Below are positions 23,588 through 32,854 of a stretch of DNA of 64,000 nucleotides, in pieces. The position numbers and the translations under genes are program-made. The stretch's first letter is position 1. Each line of letters opens with the position of its first letter. Source of the stretch: Rudaea sp. (lineage in GTDB: Bacteria; Pseudomonadota; Gammaproteobacteria; Xanthomonadales; Rhodanobacteraceae). Under the pieces are notes generated by a model. It worked only from the letters and a program-made list of their open reading frames with translations, did not search any database and had not been told where the DNA came from. The stretch lies in the NCBI GenBank assembly GCA_031291055.1, contig JARLJU010000204.1, positions 1-64,000 on the forward strand, written 5' to 3'.

Positions 23588-24334
23588 TTACGCCGCGAGT
23601 ATGCGCAGATACGCCATGACGGTCGGCGCCAGCCCCGCGTACAAGGCTTCGCCGATCAGCGCATGGCCGATGGACACTTCGGCAAGGAACGGGACTGCCG
23701 CGCTCAGCGCAGCCAGATTCGCCTGACTCAGGTCGTGGCCGGCATTGACGCCCAGACCGGCCGCGCGGGCACGCTCGGCGCTGCGCACGCACGCGGCCAG
23801 TTCGCGCTGGTAGTCGCTTTGCGCATATGCGGCGGCGTAGGGACCGGTATAAATTTCCACACGATCTGCGCCGACTTCCGCAGCGCGCTCGATGTCGGGC
23901 GAGTCCGCGTCCATGAACAGACTGACGCGGCAGCCGTGCGCTTTCAACTGCGCGACCAGCGGGCGCAGGCGCGCACCGTCCGCACGCAAATCGAATCCAT
24001 GGTCGGACGTGATCTGCGTGTCGCCATCGGGTACGAGCGTGCACTGTGCCGGCCGCGTGCGTGCGACCAGGTCCAGCAGGCCGGGATACGCTTCACGAGC
24101 CGGCGCGAAAACATTGCCTTCGATGTTGAACTCTGCGCGCCCGGCAACCAGCGCGCCGAGAGCGAGCACGTCATCAGAACGGATGTGACGCTGATCGGGA
24201 CGCGGATGCACGGTGATGCCGCCGGCGCCGGCCGCGATGCAGGTGACGGCGGCGGTGCAGACGTCCGGCTCTTGGCCGCCGCGCGAGTTGCGCAATACGG
24301 CTATCTTGTTGACGTTCACGCTGAGCACGGTCAC
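23588..24334 (-). CDS. pdxJ: Pyridoxine 5'-phosphate synthase PdxJ
   Basis: 248 aa from a GTG start that overlaps the preceding FHA gene's stop (GTGA); the long ORF-track version extends into a shadow. [38 protein letters not shown] and EFNIEGN are PdxJ hallmarks, and [16 protein letters not shown] closes the barrel. It condenses 1-deoxyxylulose 5-phosphate with 3-amino-2-oxopropyl phosphate in vitamin B6 synthesis. In Xanthomonas pdxJ follows exbD2 on the same strand; here it faces it and is the last gene of a different, envelope-related run. Confidence 0.95.
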
Positions 24335-25317
24335 GGCGTGTTCCCGTGCGCCGTCGTCGACGCGTCGTTGGCCAGTGCATCGGTCAATCGGGCCGTACGC
24401 GCGTAGAACGCTTCGGTCGAGTCGGCACGAACCAGACGCGCTCCGGGAGGCGCCAAGGTGAGTGTGAATTGCGGCCGGGGGGAAAACCGCTGCAAGTATA
24501 CAAGTTGCTTTATTTGCATTGCTCCGGCCAGCAGCATGCCGAATGCGACCGCGGCCGCGAACGCGTTGCGCTGGCGTACCCGGCTGGCCAGGCGCAGATG
24601 TCCGTAAAGGATAAGCACGAAGGTTGCACACAACCCGCCAGCCTGCAGCCAGGGCAGCGCACGATCGAGTGCGAAAGCGAAGGCGCCCAGACGCGACATG
24701 GAGTCGAAAGTCGTCGCGAACAGCAGGCCAAGAGAGATGACCGCGAGGTGCCCGGCAAAGTGCAGGCGTTGCACCAGCAGGCGTCCGATCAGCGCCCAGA
24801 TGCCGGCCCAGATCAGTATTGCCACGAGTGGAATCAGTATGGCATTGAGCAATTTGAGCGTACCGAAGGGTTCGTAGCTGTCGAGCAGCGCATCGACGCC
24901 AAATCCGGCCAGGCACGCCAACGGTGCGACCAACGTCAGGGCAAGTCCGCGATGCGGGTGCCGACGTTCGCGCAGGGGCAGCGCTTCGGGCACGGTGACG
25001 TCGAGTGGCCGATAGCGCAATTGCGAAAGGCCAAGCGTGAAGGACTGTTCGCCGTCGAGCGCCAGCTCACTCACTCGCTGTTGCGCGGCGGCGACGCGGA
25101 TGCCGTTGACGCTGTGCAAATCGCGCAGCGCCCAATGTCCAGACGACGCATCAATCGCGGCGTGATGCGGGCTGACATGGACGTCATCCAGAATCAGGTC
25201 GTTGTCACAGGCGCGGCCGATGCGCAATTGCGGGCCATTGACCGCAACACGCTGTTCGACCCTGCCATTGCGGTCGAGCACTTCGAGCACACCGCGCGGC
25301 ATGGTTACGGCTTCCAT
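24331..25317 (-). CDS. FHA-domain membrane protein
   Basis: 328 aa. Residues about 10-105 form a forkhead-associated domain ([37 protein letters not shown]), a phosphothreonine reader with conserved Arg, Ser and Asn positions. About five membrane helices follow (e.g. [22 protein letters not shown]), then a short polar tail. The gene overlaps the protease stop upstream and the pdxJ start downstream. A second possible start (ATG at 25302, preceded by GGAAG) would remove the 13-bp overlap. The role is unknown; the kinase at the left edge of the window is one conceivable partner, which is speculative. Confidence 0.75.
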
Positions 25318-26567
25318 GCGATTGCCTCGGTGAAGCGTCGCGCGAACGCGGCTGCGTTTGCGGCGCTCACGCCGCTGAGCATCAGCGACGATTGCAGCAG
25401 CTCATGATTGTCGCGGAGGCTCAGGCTCAGCTGATAGACATCATAGAGCCCATCGAACTGTCGGTAGCGGCGCTGGCAGTAAATCACTTTCGAAGTCAAA
25501 CCAGCATGTTCGACAAAACCCGAATCGCAGCGGAAATTGCTCATCGTTTCCTCGTTGCCACCAAACGAGGAGGCATCGAAGTTTGCCGCATTCTGCAGCA
25601 GATGGAAAAAGTGAATCGCGCCCAGATCATCAGTCGACCACAAGCGGTGGTTGAACTGGATCGCGCCGGAGTTGAGTTCCTCGGACAGAAAAATGTTCTC
25701 GTCGGTGGAGCAATGATAGGACACGCTGTAGTACAGCCGCCTCGGCTCGCGCTCAGTGCGGCCCCAGCAGTTGACATAGTCGGCGAGCTGGCCGGTAACG
25801 TGGTAGCCGCCCAGCGTGCTATCGGCGAAAGCATTGCCAAGCAGGTTGCCGATGTAACGATCCTGATTGGCCAGCAATTGCTGCGCGACGGTCGCGTCAA
25901 ACGTCGCCGCACTCATCGGCGCGCTGCCGGCATGAGCGAGCAACTGGGCAACATACTTGGCCGGCACGAGAAAACTGACCTGATTGCCCGCCGACGCCAC
26001 GTTCACGCCGACGACGTTGCCCTCGGCATCGAGCGTGGGACCGCCGCTCATGCCGGGATTGATCGAGCCGGTAAAATGGATGCGCTCGTACAGGGACTTC
26101 TTCAGCAGCCCATTGTAGGTACCCTCGACGATGGTCAGGCCAAGATCCAGCGGATTGCCCAGCGAGTACAGCCGCGTGCCCATCGCTGGCGCTTCCTCGC
26201 GCAGGGAAAAATGCGCCGGCGCGAAGTCGTCCGCACGCAACAGGGCCAGATCGTGTACGACATCGATGTCGAGCAGCTCCAGTTTGCCGCTGCCACCATT
26301 CTGGTTGAGGTATTCGGCGCGAAAACGGCCCGGATGATTCACCAGTCCCGACACGACATGGTAGTTGCTGATGATACGTCCACCATCGGCGATGACGAAG
26401 CCCGAGCCCAGTGCGTGCTTGGCGTTGCCGCCCTGGTCGATCAGACGCACCTGGACGATACGGTCCTTCACGGTGGCGAATATGGACTCGGCGTTCTCCG
26501 CGGCGGCGGGCATCACCGACAACGACGAGAGGATGGGCAACAGCCAGCGAATCAACATGAAATGCAT
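25305..26567 (-). CDS. Trypsin-like (S1C) serine protease with unusual C-terminal domain
   Basis: 420 aa from the ATG giving MHFMLIRWLLPILSSLSVMPAAA, a signal peptide; the ORF-track start is a shadow extension. The triad is His70 (ISNYHVVSG), Asp106 (VHDLALL) and Ser174 (NPGMSGGP), as in HtrA-type proteases, but there is no PDZ domain. The remaining 190 residues match nothing I recognise and contain four Cys (VNCWG, SYHCST, NFRCDS, VIYCQR) that could pair in the periplasm. The gene lies between a degenerate beta-lactamase-fold gene and an FHA gene. Confidence 0.8.
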   Translation of the reverse strand: MHFMLIRWLLPILSSLSVMPAAAENAESIFATVKDRIVQVRLIDQGGNAKHALGSGFVIADGGRIISNYHVVSGLVNHPGRFRAEYLNQNGGSGKLELLDIDVVHDLALLRADDFAPAHFSLREEAPAMGTRLYSLGNPLDLGLTIVEGTYNGLLKKSLYERIHFTGSINPGMSGGPTLDAEGNVVGVNVASAGNQVSFLVPAKYVAQLLAHAGSAPMSAATFDATVAQQLLANQDRYIGNLLGNAFADSTLGGYHVTGQLADYVNCWGRTEREPRRLYYSVSYHCSTDENIFLSEELNSGAIQFNHRLWSTDDLGAIHFFHLLQNAANFDASSFGGNEETMSNFRCDSGFVEHAGLTSKVIYCQRRYRQFDGLYDVYQLSLSLRDNHELLQSSLMLSGVSAANAAAFARRFTEAIAWKP

Positions 26568-26607: not shown

Positions 26608-28269
26608 TCACGGCGCGATCCAGTGAACCTGCGGTGCGTCGCGTTCGGTCCCGGCAAAATCGATGCGCACCGACGCGACCCTGTCTTCGGCATCGCGCTT
26701 GAACGACAGCTCGCAGGAATCGTCGTCGCAGGCAAATCGATCTTTCGCGAACGCTTGCAGCGGTATCGCCATCCGCCCCGTTACCTGCAAGGAAAGCACG
26801 CCCCTGTGGATGCCGATACGCGCCAGAGTATCGGCATCCAGACGATAGTCGCCAACAAGGTCGTTCGACGCATTCGCGTCGACCGCGATCCGCACTCGTT
26901 CAACATGGGGCGCGCGGGCGCTCAGGCGTTCGGCGAGGAAATGCATGCCGTCGCGATTCAGCAGCAGGTTCGTCACCCTGCCGGCTTCGCGCTGGAAGGA
27001 AATTCCGAAACCGCTGGCGCCGGCGTCAAAGACATCATCGCCATCTGCGTGCAAGAGTGCCGCTGGCTGGCCGCCAAGCTGCGCACTGAGATTGTCGTCG
27101 CGCCGACGCACGATGATTTCGGTGCCGGAACGTACCTGGTACAGGCCGGGATAGGCGTCCAGTTGTGCGCTCGTCGGCGCTGGCGCGCGCGCTGGCGGGG
27201 GTGGTGGCGGCGAGTCGCCCTGAAGCAGCGCCATGCCGAGCGAGCTCAGGCCCGCATCGGCGTTGGCAAGCAGGACCAATCCCTGCTGGCGATCGGTGCG
27301 AAAGCCTATAAATGTGGAAAATCCGGCTGTACTGCTCGCGCGCCAGACCAGCGGCCACGCCTGCTCTCCCGTACCGACCTCGTGGATGTTCCAGCCCAAA
27401 CCTAATTCCTCCGTACGCGTTCGCGCGCGCGGCTGGCGCGCGAGCAGTAGCGCCGCGCGCAGCGGTGAATCCCCCGGACGCAGATTGAGTTGCAGGAAAT
27501 CGAGCAGATCATCGACCCTGGATCGCATCCCGGCGCTGCCGGCAAGCACGCCAAAGTGCCAGAAGGCCGCGGTCTCGCCGCGCGCATGTCCGCCGAGCAG
27601 GGCGGGGCTGTCGTCAAAACCGCTGTGCTTCATGCCGAGCGGAACAAGGACCTTGTCGTTCAGCAGCTTCGGATAATTTGCCGCATATGCCCGGCCGAGC
27701 AGATAGCCGAGCAATCCTGCGTCGAGCGTCGAGTACGCGTAGTCGGGCGCCGATGCTATGCCGCGATAGTTGGCGAGAAAGGCGCGCAGCGCCGGCTCGG
27801 CATAATCCGCGTAGGGATCCTCCGCGTTCAGCGGCATCAGATTGGGCGGCACCGGCGGCAGGCCGGCGTGGTGTGTCGCCAATGCTTCCAGCGTTATCGC
27901 ACCGGCGGCCGGATCGGCGAAAGCAAAATCCGCGGCCAGCAACTCGCGCAATGGCGTCTGCAGGCGTACTTTGCCTTCGTAGGCGGCCTGCGCCAGCAAC
28001 AACCCGCTGAAGATTTCAGTCACCGCGCCGATTTCAAACACGCTGTCGGCGTTTGCGCTGCCAAAGAACCAGGTGTCTCGATCAGCGCCGTCGATCCAGC
28101 CGACGCCCACCGCCGGGTAGGCACCGGCCTGCACTGCTTGTTCGATGGCCTGCGCGTAACCCTGCGGCAGCGCAGTCTCCGCACGCGCTGCCGCGCTGAG
28201 AAAAAGTACACAAAGAGCGGTTCTGAACGCCGCGAAACAAGCCATCCTCATCGGCGAAGAATAGCGCAT
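26608..28269 (-). CDS. Beta-lactamase/penicillin-binding-fold protein lacking catalytic motifs
   Basis: 553 aa with signal peptide (ACFAAFRTALCVLFLSAAARA). The fold of the serine hydrolase/class C beta-lactamase family is clear (SVFEIGAVTEIFSGLLLAQ, ITLEALATHHAGLP, LGMKHSGFDD). However, the S-x-x-K motif reads AVTE (82-85), the Y-x-N motif reads YST (179-181), and the usual H/K-T-G is RASST. It should therefore be inactive as an acylating hydrolase. A C-terminal domain of about 180 residues follows. I chose the ATG at 28269; 28251 and 28245 are alternatives. A perfect hairpin lies upstream. Confidence 0.8.
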   Translation of the reverse strand: MRYSSPMRMACFAAFRTALCVLFLSAAARAETALPQGYAQAIEQAVQAGAYPAVGVGWIDGADRDTWFFGSANADSVFEIGAVTEIFSGLLLAQAAYEGKVRLQTPLRELLAADFAFADPAAGAITLEALATHHAGLPPVPPNLMPLNAEDPYADYAEPALRAFLANYRGIASAPDYAYSTLDAGLLGYLLGRAYAANYPKLLNDKVLVPLGMKHSGFDDSPALLGGHARGETAAFWHFGVLAGSAGMRSRVDDLLDFLQLNLRPGDSPLRAALLLARQPRARTRTEELGLGWNIHEVGTGEQAWPLVWRASSTAGFSTFIGFRTDRQQGLVLLANADAGLSSLGMALLQGDSPPPPPPARAPAPTSAQLDAYPGLYQVRSGTEIIVRRRDDNLSAQLGGQPAALLHADGDDVFDAGASGFGISFQREAGRVTNLLLNRDGMHFLAERLSARAPHVERVRIAVDANASNDLVGDYRLDADTLARIGIHRGVLSLQVTGRMAIPLQAFAKDRFACDDDSCELSFKRDAEDRVASVRIDFAGTERDAPQVHWIAP

Positions 28270-28301
28270 CGCAGTTCCGGGACGCCAAGAGGGACCGGGG
28301 T

Positions 28302-28319
28302 CGCCACATCCGTGTGGCG
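28302..28319 (-). repeat. Hairpin in the PDZ to pseudo-beta-lactamase gap
   Basis: CGCCACA and TGTGGCG form a 7-bp perfect stem with a 4-nt loop in the 104-bp gap. No T-run follows in the transcript direction, so an mRNA-stability or partial-attenuation role is more likely than full termination. Confidence 0.4.
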
Positions 28320-28373
28320 GCAACATCCTGTGGGGAGTGTGCCGGATTTGACGCGGGGGCCGAGCAAAAGTTC

Positions 28374-29336
28374 CTAGGGACAGGCCTCCGGACTCTCGCG
28401 CCATACCACCGGATCCCAGTAACCGCCATGCGCCAGGTCGCCTGCCTTGTCCAGGTGAAGTTGTGCCGCCACCATGGCTGTCGTACCGGCTTTGACGTCG
28501 ACGATGAGCTCTTTGCTCGTATTGCGGCGCAGGCTTGCGATCTCGCTGAAGCCCATCTGCCGGGTGGGAATGTTTTCCGCAACGAGCAGCCGATGTTCGC
28601 CGGCGGCGACGCGATAGACTTCGCCGCCGCTTGGGCCGGGAGTCACTCCATCGAGCAACAGGATGCGTGCATGATATTGGTGATCGCTGCGCGAAGCGAC
28701 GTCGAACGTGCTGATCCGGCCGCAACCGCCGCCCGCCGCGAGCGTCGGGGCGGTTTTCGCAGTATCGGTGGCGGCCATCGCAGCCACGCCCAGTTCCATG
28801 CGCAGGGCCGGCAGATACACGATTTGCAGCGGCGCACTCAATTCCAGTGTCTGGCTGCCGCGCACCACCTGCAGGCGCAGAGGCGACGCATCCACCAGGT
28901 TGTCGACGCTGGACTTCAACGTTGCCGCGGCAAGTGCGCGACCATCGGCATCGGCACCCAGATCGCGCAGCGAAATATTGTTGACCGCGACGATCACGTC
29001 ACCCGGCTGCAGACCCAGGCGTTCGGCGGTGCTGCCCGGCGTTGCTCCGAGTACACGCAGGCCGTCGCGCGCGCGCTCGGCACTGGTGGAGTCGACCAGG
29101 ATGCCCAGATTGGCAACCCTGCGGGCCGGCTCATTCAGACGCATATCCAGTTGATCCGGATGCTGGCCAAGCGCACCCGAAGCGGCCAGGCGCGACAACA
29201 TCAATTGCACGTCCTGACGCAGGCGTTGTTCGGTTTCGGCGCTGGCTACCGTGCCTGAAGGCTGCGGATCCGCGGCACGGACGCTTGCCGCCGTGATCGT
29301 GAGCAGACAGAACAAAGGAATGATTCGTGATGACAT
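28374..29336 (-). CDS. Periplasmic PDZ-domain protein
   Basis: 320 aa with signal peptide (IIPLFCLLTITAASVRA). A PDZ domain occupies about residues 70-175 (GLRVLGATPGSTAERLGLQPGDVIVAVNN). The rest is a beta-rich domain (YHARILLLDGVTPGPSGGEVYRVAAGEHRLLVAEN) of a kind often seen in PEGA-like modules; that comparison is tentative. No protease domain is present. It starts 10 bp after the anti-sigma-like gene and is probably co-transcribed with the sigma factor. It may bind C-termini of envelope proteins and feed the sigma/anti-sigma switch. Confidence 0.75.
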   Translation of the reverse strand: MSSRIIPLFCLLTITAASVRAADPQPSGTVASAETEQRLRQDVQLMLSRLAASGALGQHPDQLDMRLNEPARRVANLGILVDSTSAERARDGLRVLGATPGSTAERLGLQPGDVIVAVNNISLRDLGADADGRALAAATLKSSVDNLVDASPLRLQVVRGSQTLELSAPLQIVYLPALRMELGVAAMAATDTAKTAPTLAAGGGCGRISTFDVASRSDHQYHARILLLDGVTPGPSGGEVYRVAAGEHRLLVAENIPTRQMGFSEIASLRRNTSKELIVDVKAGTTAMVAAQLHLDKAGDLAHGGYWDPVVWRESPEACP

Positions 29337-29346
29337 GGCTTACCCC

Positions 29347-29802
29347 TCAGATGCGCGTGACGGCGAGGCTCTGGCGGCGCGCGGCCAGCAGGGCGCTCAG
29401 CAATTCGCTGCGCTGTTTCCACAATGGAACAAGTTCATTTTTCTTGGCACCGTGATCGTAGGCGGCCTGCAGGGCGCCATCGACCCGCACCAGTTCGGCC
29501 TCGGCGTCGAGCGCAAGCGGATTGCTTCCGCCGTTCGCGGACGTTGCTCCGGCATGCAGCTGGATTTCCAGAGCCTGCGCGCGCGCCTGCCAGTCGGTGG
29601 CACCGCTGCCTTGCAACCGTACCGCAAAAAGCACGACGGTCAGTCCCGCCAGTACGGCAAAGCCGGCACCGGCGATCCGCCGGCGCCGGCGTCGTTGTCG
29701 GCGCACCTGATGCGCCTGCGCGATCCGCGGCCAAAGATCGGCGGACGGCTCAGCCAGCAGCCGCTGCGCGACTTCGTCCAAATTCAATTCTCGTGTGGAC
29801 AT
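29347..29802 (-). CDS. Small single-pass membrane protein, probable anti-sigma factor
   Basis: 151 aa from the ATG inside the sigma gene's last codons (19-bp overlap). A cytoplasmic N-terminus of about 45 residues (STRELNLDEVAQRLLAEPSADLWPRIAQAH), a very basic stretch (RRQRRRRRR), one membrane helix (IAGAGFAVLAGLTVVLFAVRL) and a periplasmic helical tail are visible. No zinc HxxxCxxC motif is present. Overlap with an ECF sigma gene and the topology are the basis for the anti-sigma call; sequence similarity to a named family is not evident. Confidence 0.65.
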   Translation of the reverse strand: MSTRELNLDEVAQRLLAEPSADLWPRIAQAHQVRRQRRRRRRIAGAGFAVLAGLTVVLFAVRLQGSGATDWQARAQALEIQLHAGATSANGGSNPLALDAEAELVRVDGALQAAYDHGAKKNELVPLWKQRSELLSALLAARRQSLAVTRI

Positions 29803-30419
29803 GTCAAAACCTGTTTTAGTGAAGACGCTGCAACCAGGGCATTCAGACGCCCGATTGCACGCGCCAGGATTGATTTGGAATAACTTTCGCTCTGACCGAA
29901 CAGCGCGGCCAGTTCGCTGTGCGTGTAGCCTTCGAATTCGTGCAGCACCAGTACGGCACGTGCACGTGGCGGCAGGCGTCCCAGCAGCGACCATGCATCG
30001 ACCATATTAGCCGCCTCTGGGCCGTCGCTGGTCAGATGCGCGAACAGGGCTTCTGGATCGTCTTCGACGCCATGCCGCTGGCGGCGCAGCTGATCGATGC
30101 AGGCATTCGCCGCCAGTCGCTTCAGCCACGCTCCGAACGGCGCGTCACCGCGGTAGCTGCCGACGGTATCCATCATTTTGAGGAAAACCTCCTGCACCAG
30201 ATCTTCCGCCTGCTGACGATCTCCGAGCATGCGCAGAGCCAGATTGAAGCAAGGCCGGCCGAAGCACTGGTAAAGAGTCGCGAACGCCTGCATGTCGCCG
30301 CGCTGCGCACGAGCCAAGGTCATCGCCTCGACGTTCTGCGCAAACCCGACACCCCGATCGCTGGCAGCCGGCTCTTGCGCAGCGCGATCCTGTGAGGCCC
30401 GGTTTTGTACGGCATGCAT
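29784..30419 (-). CDS. ECF-type RNA polymerase sigma factor
   Basis: 211 aa using the ATG that gives MHAVQNRASQ; the longer track ORF is unlikely. Region 2 (FATLYQCFGRPCFNLALRMLGDRQQAEDLVQEVFLKMM) and region 4 (LPPRARAVLVLHEFEGYTHSELAALFGQSESYSKSILARA) are intact. It should direct polymerase to a small set of promoters and be held by the product of the overlapping next gene. It stands fourth from the downstream end of no obvious repeat; functionally it heads the PDZ, pseudo-beta-lactamase, protease and FHA genes. The start is weakly supported by its ribosome-binding site. Confidence 0.85.
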   Translation of the reverse strand: MHAVQNRASQDRAAQEPAASDRGVGFAQNVEAMTLARAQRGDMQAFATLYQCFGRPCFNLALRMLGDRQQAEDLVQEVFLKMMDTVGSYRGDAPFGAWLKRLAANACIDQLRRQRHGVEDDPEALFAHLTSDGPEAANMVDAWSLLGRLPPRARAVLVLHEFEGYTHSELAALFGQSESYSKSILARAIGRLNALVAASSLKQVLTCPHEN

Positions 30420-30456
30420 TGGAATAAGGACGTTTGCGCGGCGTCCGCCGTCGCAA

Positions 30457-32094
30457 TCACCCTGACGGCAAATACCGGCGCAGGAGCTGAACCTGCTGAA
30501 TGCGCATTTTCGGCACCACGAATTGCGCATCGCCACCACCGCCATTGACGCGCAGTTCGACCCCCGTGTCATCGGCGCCGATCACGTAACCTTCGACCTT
30601 CTTGCCGCCTTCGGTGATCAGCCGCACCCGGCGACCCTGCGCGTCCTTGAGCCGCGCGTATTCGATGACGTCGTAGTCGTGGTACTCGGGCGGGGGTGCG
30701 CCCAGGCGTTCGATCGTAGGCTTCCACACCAGGGCCATGGTCGAGCCCGGGGGCGGTGGCGGTGTACTTGGCAGAAAATCCGGCGTGCTGCGCGGCGACA
30801 CCGGCCTGGGCGGCTGCGGCAACCTGGCTTCCGCGCGATCCAGCTCGTCAAGCCCCATATTCGGCCCCGGCGGACGACCCGGCGGACTCGCCGCGGGCGG
30901 AGTCGCCGCCACGGGTTTCGCCGCTGCGGTGATGCTTTCGGCAGGCACGTGCGCGATGGCGGCGGCTGCTGTGCCGGACGGCGGTATTGTCGCAGTGACG
31001 GGGGGCATGGATGGCGAAGGTGGCACAGGCACCGGGATCGACGCGGTACCGGACAGGTTGCCGGTCACCGCCGCGATCGGCGTCGACGGTGGTGTATCCG
31101 CGACCGTCTCGGCCTGCGCAGGCGCAGCGAAACTCAGCCGGAACATTACCGGTGGCGTGTCTTGATAACGGGCGGTGACGTTGAGCTGGCGCAACAGATC
31201 TTCCGGTGCGAGGGTCAAACCCGTGCCAGCCACGAAACTGCTGTTGGGCAGGCTGAGGATGCTCGCCTGGCCGCCGGATTCAACCAGATGGCGATACAGC
31301 TTCATCAGCTCGTTGCTGGCCTGGATGCCGTGCTGCTGCAGCAGCGCCTGCACTGCGGCGACATGCTGCTCGGCGAATTGTCCCGGCCCGATGCTCGCCC
31401 GCTGCCCGCAGAACCGGTTGCGGCGCTCCAGGTAACCCAGGTCGGAATAGTCCATCGAGAGCTGGTCGACGTGCAGCTTGTCCAGCGCCATCGGACCTTT
31501 CGGATCGAACGGGTGCACTTCGGCTTCCAGGGCCAGTTTGGCGAATCCGGGCGACGCCAGGGTCAAGGTCAGATCCAGCGTCTTGCTGTCCATGTCGTAA
31601 CGATAGTCGACACGTTGTCGCGTATCGCCGACGCTCACACCCATCTTGCTGTAATCGGCAGGAGCAAACGCGCTGACGCCACAACCCAGTGTTTCAAACG
31701 GCACCAGGGTCGAGGGGTTGAGCCATTGGCTGTCAAGCCATGGCATGGAGGGCAGCTTCAGGCCGCTTACCGAGACCCCGAACCGCGGCGGCAGGAGACT
31801 TTCGCTGAACAGCGCGTGCTTGAGCAGCCAGAACACCCCCGGGGTCTCCACGGCGACACTGTCCGCATGAAACACATCCTGGGTCTTGTCGCGCTTGACG
31901 GCGACATTGACGCCGCTCAGGTTCACGCTGCCGTCGAGTCCGGCCGAGATGCTGTCGTAATGCACCTGCGCGTATGGCGCCAGCGCAGCCGTGATCCGCT
32001 GTGCGTCCTGCCCTACTTCGTACCAGGCCAGTAGCTTCAGCACACCCGCAAGCAGAATGCCCGCGAGGGCAAGATTACGCAGCAGTTTCCACAT
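30457..32094 (-). CDS. Membrane-anchored periplasmic protein of unknown function, Pro-rich linker
   Basis: 545 aa from the ATG giving MWKLLRNLALAGILLAGVLKLLAW, an uncleaved anchor or signal. Residues about 30-320 form a beta-rich domain reminiscent of proteins that line lipid-transport or AsmA-like assemblies (SISAGLDGSVNLSGVNVAV), though I cannot name the family. A Pro/Ala-rich linker of about 130 residues follows. The C-terminal 60 residues look like a small SH3-like barrel (RVRLITEGGKKVEGYVIGADDTGVELRV). It starts 91 bp after the phosphopantetheinyl transferase gene and ends 37 bp before the sigma factor. Confidence 0.6.
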   Translation of the reverse strand: MWKLLRNLALAGILLAGVLKLLAWYEVGQDAQRITAALAPYAQVHYDSISAGLDGSVNLSGVNVAVKRDKTQDVFHADSVAVETPGVFWLLKHALFSESLLPPRFGVSVSGLKLPSMPWLDSQWLNPSTLVPFETLGCGVSAFAPADYSKMGVSVGDTRQRVDYRYDMDSKTLDLTLTLASPGFAKLALEAEVHPFDPKGPMALDKLHVDQLSMDYSDLGYLERRNRFCGQRASIGPGQFAEQHVAAVQALLQQHGIQASNELMKLYRHLVESGGQASILSLPNSSFVAGTGLTLAPEDLLRQLNVTARYQDTPPVMFRLSFAAPAQAETVADTPPSTPIAAVTGNLSGTASIPVPVPPSPSMPPVTATIPPSGTAAAAIAHVPAESITAAAKPVAATPPAASPPGRPPGPNMGLDELDRAEARLPQPPRPVSPRSTPDFLPSTPPPPPGSTMALVWKPTIERLGAPPPEYHDYDVIEYARLKDAQGRRVRLITEGGKKVEGYVIGADDTGVELRVNGGGGDAQFVVPKMRIQQVQLLRRYLPSG

Positions 32095-32185
32095 TCGGAT
32101 AAACCTTGCGCCGGACCCGAAACTTAGCTGGATTAGGCACGCGGGGCAATGGCCGTTGGGCACGGACTGCCTCTGCGGCGGTGTT

Positions 32186-32854
32186 CTAGGGCATTGGCGG
32201 ACTTGCCGCATAGGCATGAATCCTGCGCGCCGGGCCGCGCCACGCCACGGCACCGGAGTACGCCGGAGCGGGGCGCAGCTGCACGACATGCCACAACGCC
32301 GGCGTCGGTTCGCCATCGAGCTTTTGCAGGCCAAGGACTCTGCCGGAGGCATCCAGCTCGAAGACCAGGCGATGAAGGCCGAAGGCGATGCCATGCCCCA
32401 GCGCCTTCAACACGGCTTCCTTGCAACTCCACAGGCGCATGAAGGCTGCCTCGCGCCGATCCGCAGGCAATCCGGCCAGTAACGCAGCTTCAGCGGGATC
32501 GAAATAGCGCCGCGCCAGGTCCAGCACTGGCCGCAGCCGTCGTGGCGTTTCCAGATCCGTGCCCAACGCCTGCCCGCGGCTCACCCCGACCAGCAAAGCG
32601 CCGCCGCTGTGCGAAAGATTGAATTCCAGCCCCGCCGCGTCGCGCAGGCCGGGCTTGCCATGCATGTTGCGCTCGATTCGCAACCGCTCGGGGCCGCTTT
32701 CCAGGTAACCGGCGAGCAGTGCGCGCAGCGGCAGCGATTGCGCCACGTCGTGCGCCGGCGTTGGCCATTGCGCGAAAAACCACAAGTGGATTTCCCCGTC
32801 TGCGAGCGGCGGCGGTTGTTCTTGCACAAAATCACGCGCAACGAGTTCTTGCAT
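32186..32854 (-). CDS. 4'-phosphopantetheinyl transferase superfamily protein (Sfp type)
   Basis: 222 aa from the ATG giving MQELVARDFV. The family motifs are present: FNLSHSGG, GTDLETPRRL (Mg-binding Asp and Glu) and FMRLWSCKEAVLKALGHGI (W-x-x-KEA). It transfers phosphopantetheine from CoA to carrier-protein serines. Sfp-type length suggests activity on a secondary-metabolite, aryl-polyene or fatty-acid carrier; no carrier protein is in the window. It is divergent from crbS across 151 bp. Confidence 0.88.
   Translation of the reverse strand: MQELVARDFVQEQPPPLADGEIHLWFFAQWPTPAHDVAQSLPLRALLAGYLESGPERLRIERNMHGKPGLRDAAGLEFNLSHSGGALLVGVSRGQALGTDLETPRRLRPVLDLARRYFDPAEAALLAGLPADRREAAFMRLWSCKEAVLKALGHGIAFGLHRLVFELDASGRVLGLQKLDGEPTPALWHVVQLRPAPAYSGAVAWRGPARRIHAYAASPPMP

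Follow-up and report, generated by a model that had tools for sequence, protein, structure and literature searches.

A catalytically dead class C beta-lactamase-fold protein beside an ECF sigma factor cassette: a candidate envelope sensor

Within the 64,000-nucleotide stretch of genomic DNA analysed here (the window), directly downstream of an ECF sigma factor / anti-sigma-like / PDZ gene cassette, lies a gene for a class C beta-lactamase-fold protein that has lost its catalytic residues and is nevertheless kept under purifying selection. We propose that the protein is exported and serves as a non-catalytic envelope sensor or regulator tied to the ECF sigma switch, a proposal that we regard as evenly poised between right and wrong. 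Sensing or regulating appears the most likely function because the catalytic residues are gone, selection maintains the gene in at least two genera, and ECF sigma genes adjoin it. The conserved linkage to the sigma, anti-sigma-like and PDZ genes is the strongest functional clue, and it is new beyond the earlier note on this DNA, as are the promoter motif and leader hairpin described below. Conservation was followed in 16 genomes of the window's own genus (the window genome and 15 others sampled), in eight genomes of a second genus of the same family, and in one further genome (G218), whose copy of the gene is partial, the contig ending inside it.

The gene and the codons that occupy its former catalytic positions are as follows:

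26608..28269, minus strand: pseudo-beta-lactamase coding sequence, 553 aa, open from ATG to stop; signal peptide at residues 1-30, PF00144 at 41-340, Pro-rich linker at ~347-362, then two C-terminal DUF3471-type stretches
28015..28026, minus strand: codons A82-V-T-E85 at the SxxK position; A and E invariant in the genus, SxxK absent
27727..27735, minus strand: codons Y179-S-T181 at the YxN position; Y invariant, N lost
27334..27342, minus strand: codons R310-A311-S312 at the K/HTG position; invariant in the genus, K/H-T-G absent

The Pfam Beta-lactamase family PF00144 matches residues 41-340 with an E-value of 4.9e-36 (125 bits against a cut-off of 27), and DUF3471 matches in two stretches (E 6.7e-13); a type I signal peptide can be read by eye (MRYSSPMRMACFAAFRTALCVLFLSAAARA, then E). 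The fold, signal peptide and C-terminal region are thus present in an open frame, as the earlier note had described them. The nearest solved structures are class C beta-lactamases, and the protein can be aligned to AmpC over residues 75-300. When the orthologue profile is set against solved AmpC structures, GAVTE falls on GSVSK, YST on YAN and WRASST on hKTGaT, so that S64 becomes A82, K67 becomes E85, Y150 is kept as Y179, N152 becomes T181, and K315-T316-G317 becomes R310-A311-S312. The earlier readings of the three motifs as AVTE, YST and RASST were therefore right: all three are broken, and only the tyrosine of motif 2 survives. Judged from these residues, the protein cannot be a beta-lactamase or hydrolase acting by the known mechanism. 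In AmpC, the side chains equivalent to E85, Y179 and R310 point towards one another across the active site; we take the geometry of the pocket from AmpC because AlphaFold, run on a two-row alignment (one relative), returned too poor a model (pLDDT 35, pTM 0.21).

The loss is shared by the whole genus sampled, and the gene is maintained. An orthologue is present in all 15 other genomes, at 43-71% identity to the window protein, and residues A82, E85, Y179, R310, A311, S312, T314, A315, G316 and F317 are invariant in every alignment row that covers them (15-16 rows, depending on the position), with the position equivalent to N152 drifting among T, P, I, L and V. Between closely related pairs within the genus, dN/dS (Nei-Gojobori) is 0.07-0.16 in the beta-lactamase-fold domain and 0.14-0.26 in the C-terminal part, from which it follows that the catalytically dead domain is the more constrained of the two; 75 of its ~310 positions are invariant across the genus. 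Sequencing error and strain-specific decay are ruled out by the 15 orthologues together with these ratios. A gene that is decaying, its function gone and its frame still open, could be argued from the erosion of the motifs in the second genus and in G218, but for the window's genus this explanation is refuted by conservation and by the low dN/dS of the fold domain, lower there than in the C-terminal part; no internal stop was found among the orthologues of the genus, and we consider decay scarcely credible. A search of the same alignment for an invariant lysine after residue 35 found none, and S312 is the sole invariant serine of the fold domain, which argues that no conserved Ser-Lys pair has been relocated elsewhere in the pocket; such a pair was one of the findings that, by the earlier note, would overturn its view, and at the level of sequence it is ruled out. 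That note's proposal of a maintained pseudoenzyme is borne out by the purifying selection on the fold, the presence throughout the genus, and the want of an invariant lysine or a second invariant serine. The note's further conjecture was that peptidoglycan-like ligands may be bound or sensed.

The genes around the pseudo-beta-lactamase are arranged in a conserved order, namely ECF sigma, a short membrane protein that is probably the anti-sigma factor, PDZ protein, pseudo-beta-lactamase, pdxJ:

30457-32394, minus strand: protein of 645 aa encoded ahead of the sigma gene, with one Pro-rich region and a C-terminus weakly resembling LSM/SH3
29784..30419, minus strand: cassette gene 1, an ECF sigma factor of 211 aa by family matches
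29347..29802, minus strand: cassette gene 2, a short protein with one TM segment seen by eye; probable anti-sigma factor, judged by that segment, position and conservation
28374..29336, minus strand: PDZ-domain protein, 320 aa, with a signal-peptide-like N-terminus, cassette gene 3
25305..26567, minus strand: HtrA-like trypsin-fold protease, between pseudo-beta-lactamase and pdxJ in the window genome only
24331..25317, minus strand: FHA-domain membrane protein, at this locus in the window genome only
23588..24334, minus strand: pdxJ, which bounds the cassette region downstream in the genera examined

The sigma factor consists of sigma-70 regions 2 and 4 only (PF04542 and PF08281; TIGR02937 at 87.6 bits against a cut-off of 42.9). 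For its neighbour of ~150 aa, no family match was significant and anti-sigma matches stayed below threshold; it is probably the anti-sigma factor. The 645-aa protein, encoded ahead of the sigma gene in some members of the genus, has no family match above cut-off. The HtrA-like protease and the FHA protein, lying near a sigma/anti-sigma-like cassette, could form a site-1 protease module; as conserved partners they were rejected, since they adjoin the pseudo-beta-lactamase in the window genome only.

The pseudo-beta-lactamase gene was found in 16 of 16 genomes of the window's genus; in every one whose upstream flank is readable, it follows immediately after the PDZ gene and on the same strand. 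All eight genomes of the second genus also carry it, adjoining the cassette between the PDZ gene and pdxJ on the same strand where the contig is readable, and the partial copy of G218 adjoins the cassette too. Elsewhere in the order, in other genera and families, the pseudo-beta-lactamase is missing and pdxJ follows the sigma, anti-sigma-like and PDZ genes, which is the state in most genera. The beta-lactamase-fold gene therefore either joined an older sigma cassette or was lost from it, and it cannot be a core regulator of the sigma factor. Its place between the conserved pdxJ and the cassette would also suit a mere passenger of the pdxJ-tonB region, engaged in housekeeping cell-wall maintenance that has nothing to do with the sigma factor, as would the fact that family relatives retain SxxK, YxN and HxG, like any ordinary serine hydrolase; but the insertion point, between PDZ and pdxJ on the same strand, is identical in two genera and comes with a conserved regulatory leader, and we judge a passenger unlikely. 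In another family of the order (f2; loci L155-L158 and L160), related cassettes of sigma, anti-sigma-like and periplasmic protein genes were seen downstream of murU-type genes, those at L156 and L158 exceeding the cut-off of the MurU family NF045761; murU is a peptidoglycan-recycling gene.

Comparison across lineages indicates that the shared role does not need catalysis, since the pocket differs by lineage at one and the same locus. In a maximum-likelihood tree of the pseudo-beta-lactamase and its homologues, from which the catalytic motif columns were left out, the copies from the operon group together in a single clade (SH-aLRT 100) that includes no SxxK-bearing homologue; the family relatives outside the operon keep all three hydrolase motifs. 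Beyond these, a search of IMG/VR returned no relatives, and the genome contig collection held one distant SxxK-type homologue, in Duganella. The pocket of the window's genus reads AxxE / YS[TPILV] / RAS. That of the second genus has D, N or G at position 82; mostly A, and no Lys, at 85; E, D or Q at 179, followed by S; and Q at 310. In G218 the motifs read SxxR and YSE, the serine being kept and Arg standing for Lys. This copy (L122:1-680, minus strand), at the same locus and cut by the contig end, has the look of an intermediate with its serine still in place. Because G218 keeps it, the serine was probably lost separately in the two genera, the place of G218 in the tree being uncertain on account of its partial sequence and long branch. 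Copies from the second genus, such as L042:9217-11385 (plus strand), carry long Ala/Pro-rich C-terminal tails that are absent from the window's genus.

The residues common to the two genera and not found in active homologues, which include R271, R278, Q279, W305, R324, Q328, R388, R458, D478 and R484, are arginine-rich and lie outside the catalytic motifs, a pattern that points to a common binding surface. In the window's genus, the fixed set of E85, Y179 and R310 would add a rewired pocket, if the geometry of AmpC carries over. Invariance of E85, Y179 and R310-A-S over 43-71% identity is what one expects of functional residues, and these three might carry out a different, non-acylating chemistry in a rebuilt enzyme. 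We consider this very unlikely: at the same locus the second genus has D, N or G at 82, mostly A at 85, E, D or Q at 179 and Q at 310, and an invariant Ser-Lys pair is absent.

The pseudo-beta-lactamase also has regulatory signals of its own, which are set out here with the motif that precedes the sigma gene:

28347..28374, minus strand: RpoE/AlgU-type promoter-like motif GGAACTT-N16-TCAAA, upstream of the pseudo-beta-lactamase
28304..28317, minus strand: leader hairpin CCACACGGATGTGG with an ANGGAN hexaloop, CsrA/RsmA-type by pattern and conservation
30429..30456, minus strand: putative ECF promoter for autoregulation, TTGCGACG-N16-CGTC, lying 9 bp ahead of the sigma start codon

The pattern GGAACTT-N16-TCNAA has one match in the 5.07-Mb genome, at 28347..28374, and the hairpin pattern CCACANGGAYGTGG likewise one, before the pseudo-beta-lactamase. 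In 17 loci of the two genera, the interval between the PDZ and pseudo-beta-lactamase genes holds the promoter motif (GGAACTT, CGAACTT or close variants, ~16 nt, then TC..A), a CACTCCC-like block and the hairpin CCACANGGAYGTG. The inner four pairs of the hairpin are intact in 16-17 of the 17 loci, and the fifth is formed in 14 of them, variously as G-C, U-A, A-U or G-U; over 28298-28374 and the 16 related loci the hairpin is better conserved than the rest of the interval. Its loop is invariant, which favours a site on RNA over a dyad in DNA. A 4-bp stem with an ANGGAN hexaloop fits the SELEX consensus and loop geometry published for CsrA (PMC7652899). The feature expected of a CsrA/RsmA target, ACANGGANGU, with GGA in the hexaloop of a short hairpin, is present across the 17 loci, and the window genome has a csrA gene. 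The hairpin pattern is absent from loci L029, L044, L103, L106 and L122, and a search of Rfam gave no relevant match. Use of the promoter by RpoE and binding of the hairpin by CsrA are predictions from these motifs, and transcription of the cassette as an operon is likewise predicted.

Before the sigma gene, TGCGACG-N16-CGTC is conserved, with a 16-nt spacer in the genomes of the genus that were read, and is presumably autoregulatory. Three of its other matches (L176:1501, L226:388 and L228; one in G000 and two in 1.18 Mb of G007) stand before genes whose products are exported, a weak hint of an envelope regulon. As a candidate target of the cassette sigma factor, csrA was rejected: the motif occurs in the alaS-csrA gap of the window genome but is absent before csrA in G007, and genome-wide it was not enriched (7 matches against 14 in the reversed control).

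The motif before the sigma gene is unlike the GGAACTT-N16-TC motif of the pseudo-beta-lactamase, and because the two differ, the latter gene may owe its expression chiefly to RpoE and could be an output rather than an input. Its product would then be a periplasmic protein that binds or protects, made under the control of RpoE and CsrA, such as a MipB-like protein, a trap for beta-lactams or antimicrobial peptides, or a partner of a penicillin-binding protein, and the gene's proximity to the cassette would reflect co-regulation only. The conserved RpoE-type motif and the CsrA-type leader, both immediately upstream, agree with such an output, as does the cassette that most genera possess without the gene; its position directly downstream of PDZ on the same strand, in both genera where flanks can be read, and a leader hairpin found nowhere else in the genome count against it. 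We consider an output doubtful but not remote.

In the mechanism that we favour, a dead class C beta-lactamase-fold protein was recruited into the ECF sigma / anti-sigma-like / PDZ cassette. Exported to the periplasm, it would bind a ligand or partner there through the arginine-rich, clade-specific surface, in the window's genus perhaps also through the rewired Glu-Tyr-Arg pocket, and binding would tune envelope stress signalling or report the stress to the sigma system. A more specific version, which we offer tentatively as a possibility, is that after recruitment each lineage dropped the catalytic residues in its own way, yielding an obligately non-catalytic component of ECF sigma signalling, with the pocket of the window's genus charge-swapped (Ser to Ala, Lys to Glu, His to Arg) into a fixed Glu-Tyr-Arg site for binding, and the RpoE-type promoter and CsrA-type leader exerting double control.

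A beta-lactamase-like fold is routinely taken as enough to annotate a gene as a resistance enzyme or hydrolase, and the present gene is a counterexample. At this conserved regulatory locus, the natural series from SxxK through SxxR and AxxE to D/N/G without Lys provides material for asking how an enzyme fold may become a sensor, and the defined operon of sigma, anti-sigma-like, PDZ and pseudoenzyme genes offers a test ground for envelope sensing in these bacteria.

Like the family of class C beta-lactamases, EstB and DD-peptidases, the window protein exceeds the PF00144 cut-off; unlike the active hydrolases of that family, it has replaced the catalytic Ser, Lys, Asn and Lys/His-Thr-Gly. In Stenotrophomonas maltophilia, the gene of the 192-aa ECF sigma factor RpoP (sigma-P) is followed by those of Smlt3513 (177 aa) and Smlt3512 (293 aa), whose functions are not known, in an operon proposed to answer peptidoglycan stress (PMC9769791). 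The three-gene layout resembles our cassette, a likeness of layout only, and no beta-lactamase-fold gene has been reported there; we rejected equating the two, as the murU-linked loci of family f2 are suggestive and not proof of orthology.

PbpP of Bacillus thuringiensis, a functional penicillin-binding protein, detects beta-lactams through binding and controls the ECF factor sigma-P; its active-site mutant S301A, when overexpressed, still activates sigma-P (PMC8092216). PbpP is an envelope protein of the penicillin-binding-protein family that controls an ECF sigma factor, and the window protein is comparable in being encoded beside the cassette of one, but acylation at the canonical serine is impossible in the latter. 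The closest known analogue, likened by description and not by sequence, is MipB (PA1797) of P. aeruginosa, a pseudoenzyme whose beta-lactamase fold lacks SxxK and has degenerate motifs 2 and 3, followed by a linker and two C-terminal domains modelled as 8-stranded barrels; a lipoprotein predicted to reside in the outer membrane and regulated by the ParRS two-component system, it co-purifies with MipA and is proposed to be a polymyxin co-sensor feeding a transcriptional regulator (PMC10936184). The window protein resembles MipB's published description in having the fold with all three motifs degenerate, and its linker too is followed by two stretches, here of DUF3471 type by Pfam. Unlike MipB, it has no lipobox on inspection of the sequence, its signal peptide being of type I by eye, and the adjacent genes identified (ECF sigma, anti-sigma-like, PDZ, protease, FHA and pdxJ) include neither mipA nor parRS. 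The S301A mutant of PbpP and the case of MipB together make a non-catalytic role plausible; pseudo-beta-lactamases themselves were already known, and what is new here is a MipB-like one tied to an ECF sigma cassette.
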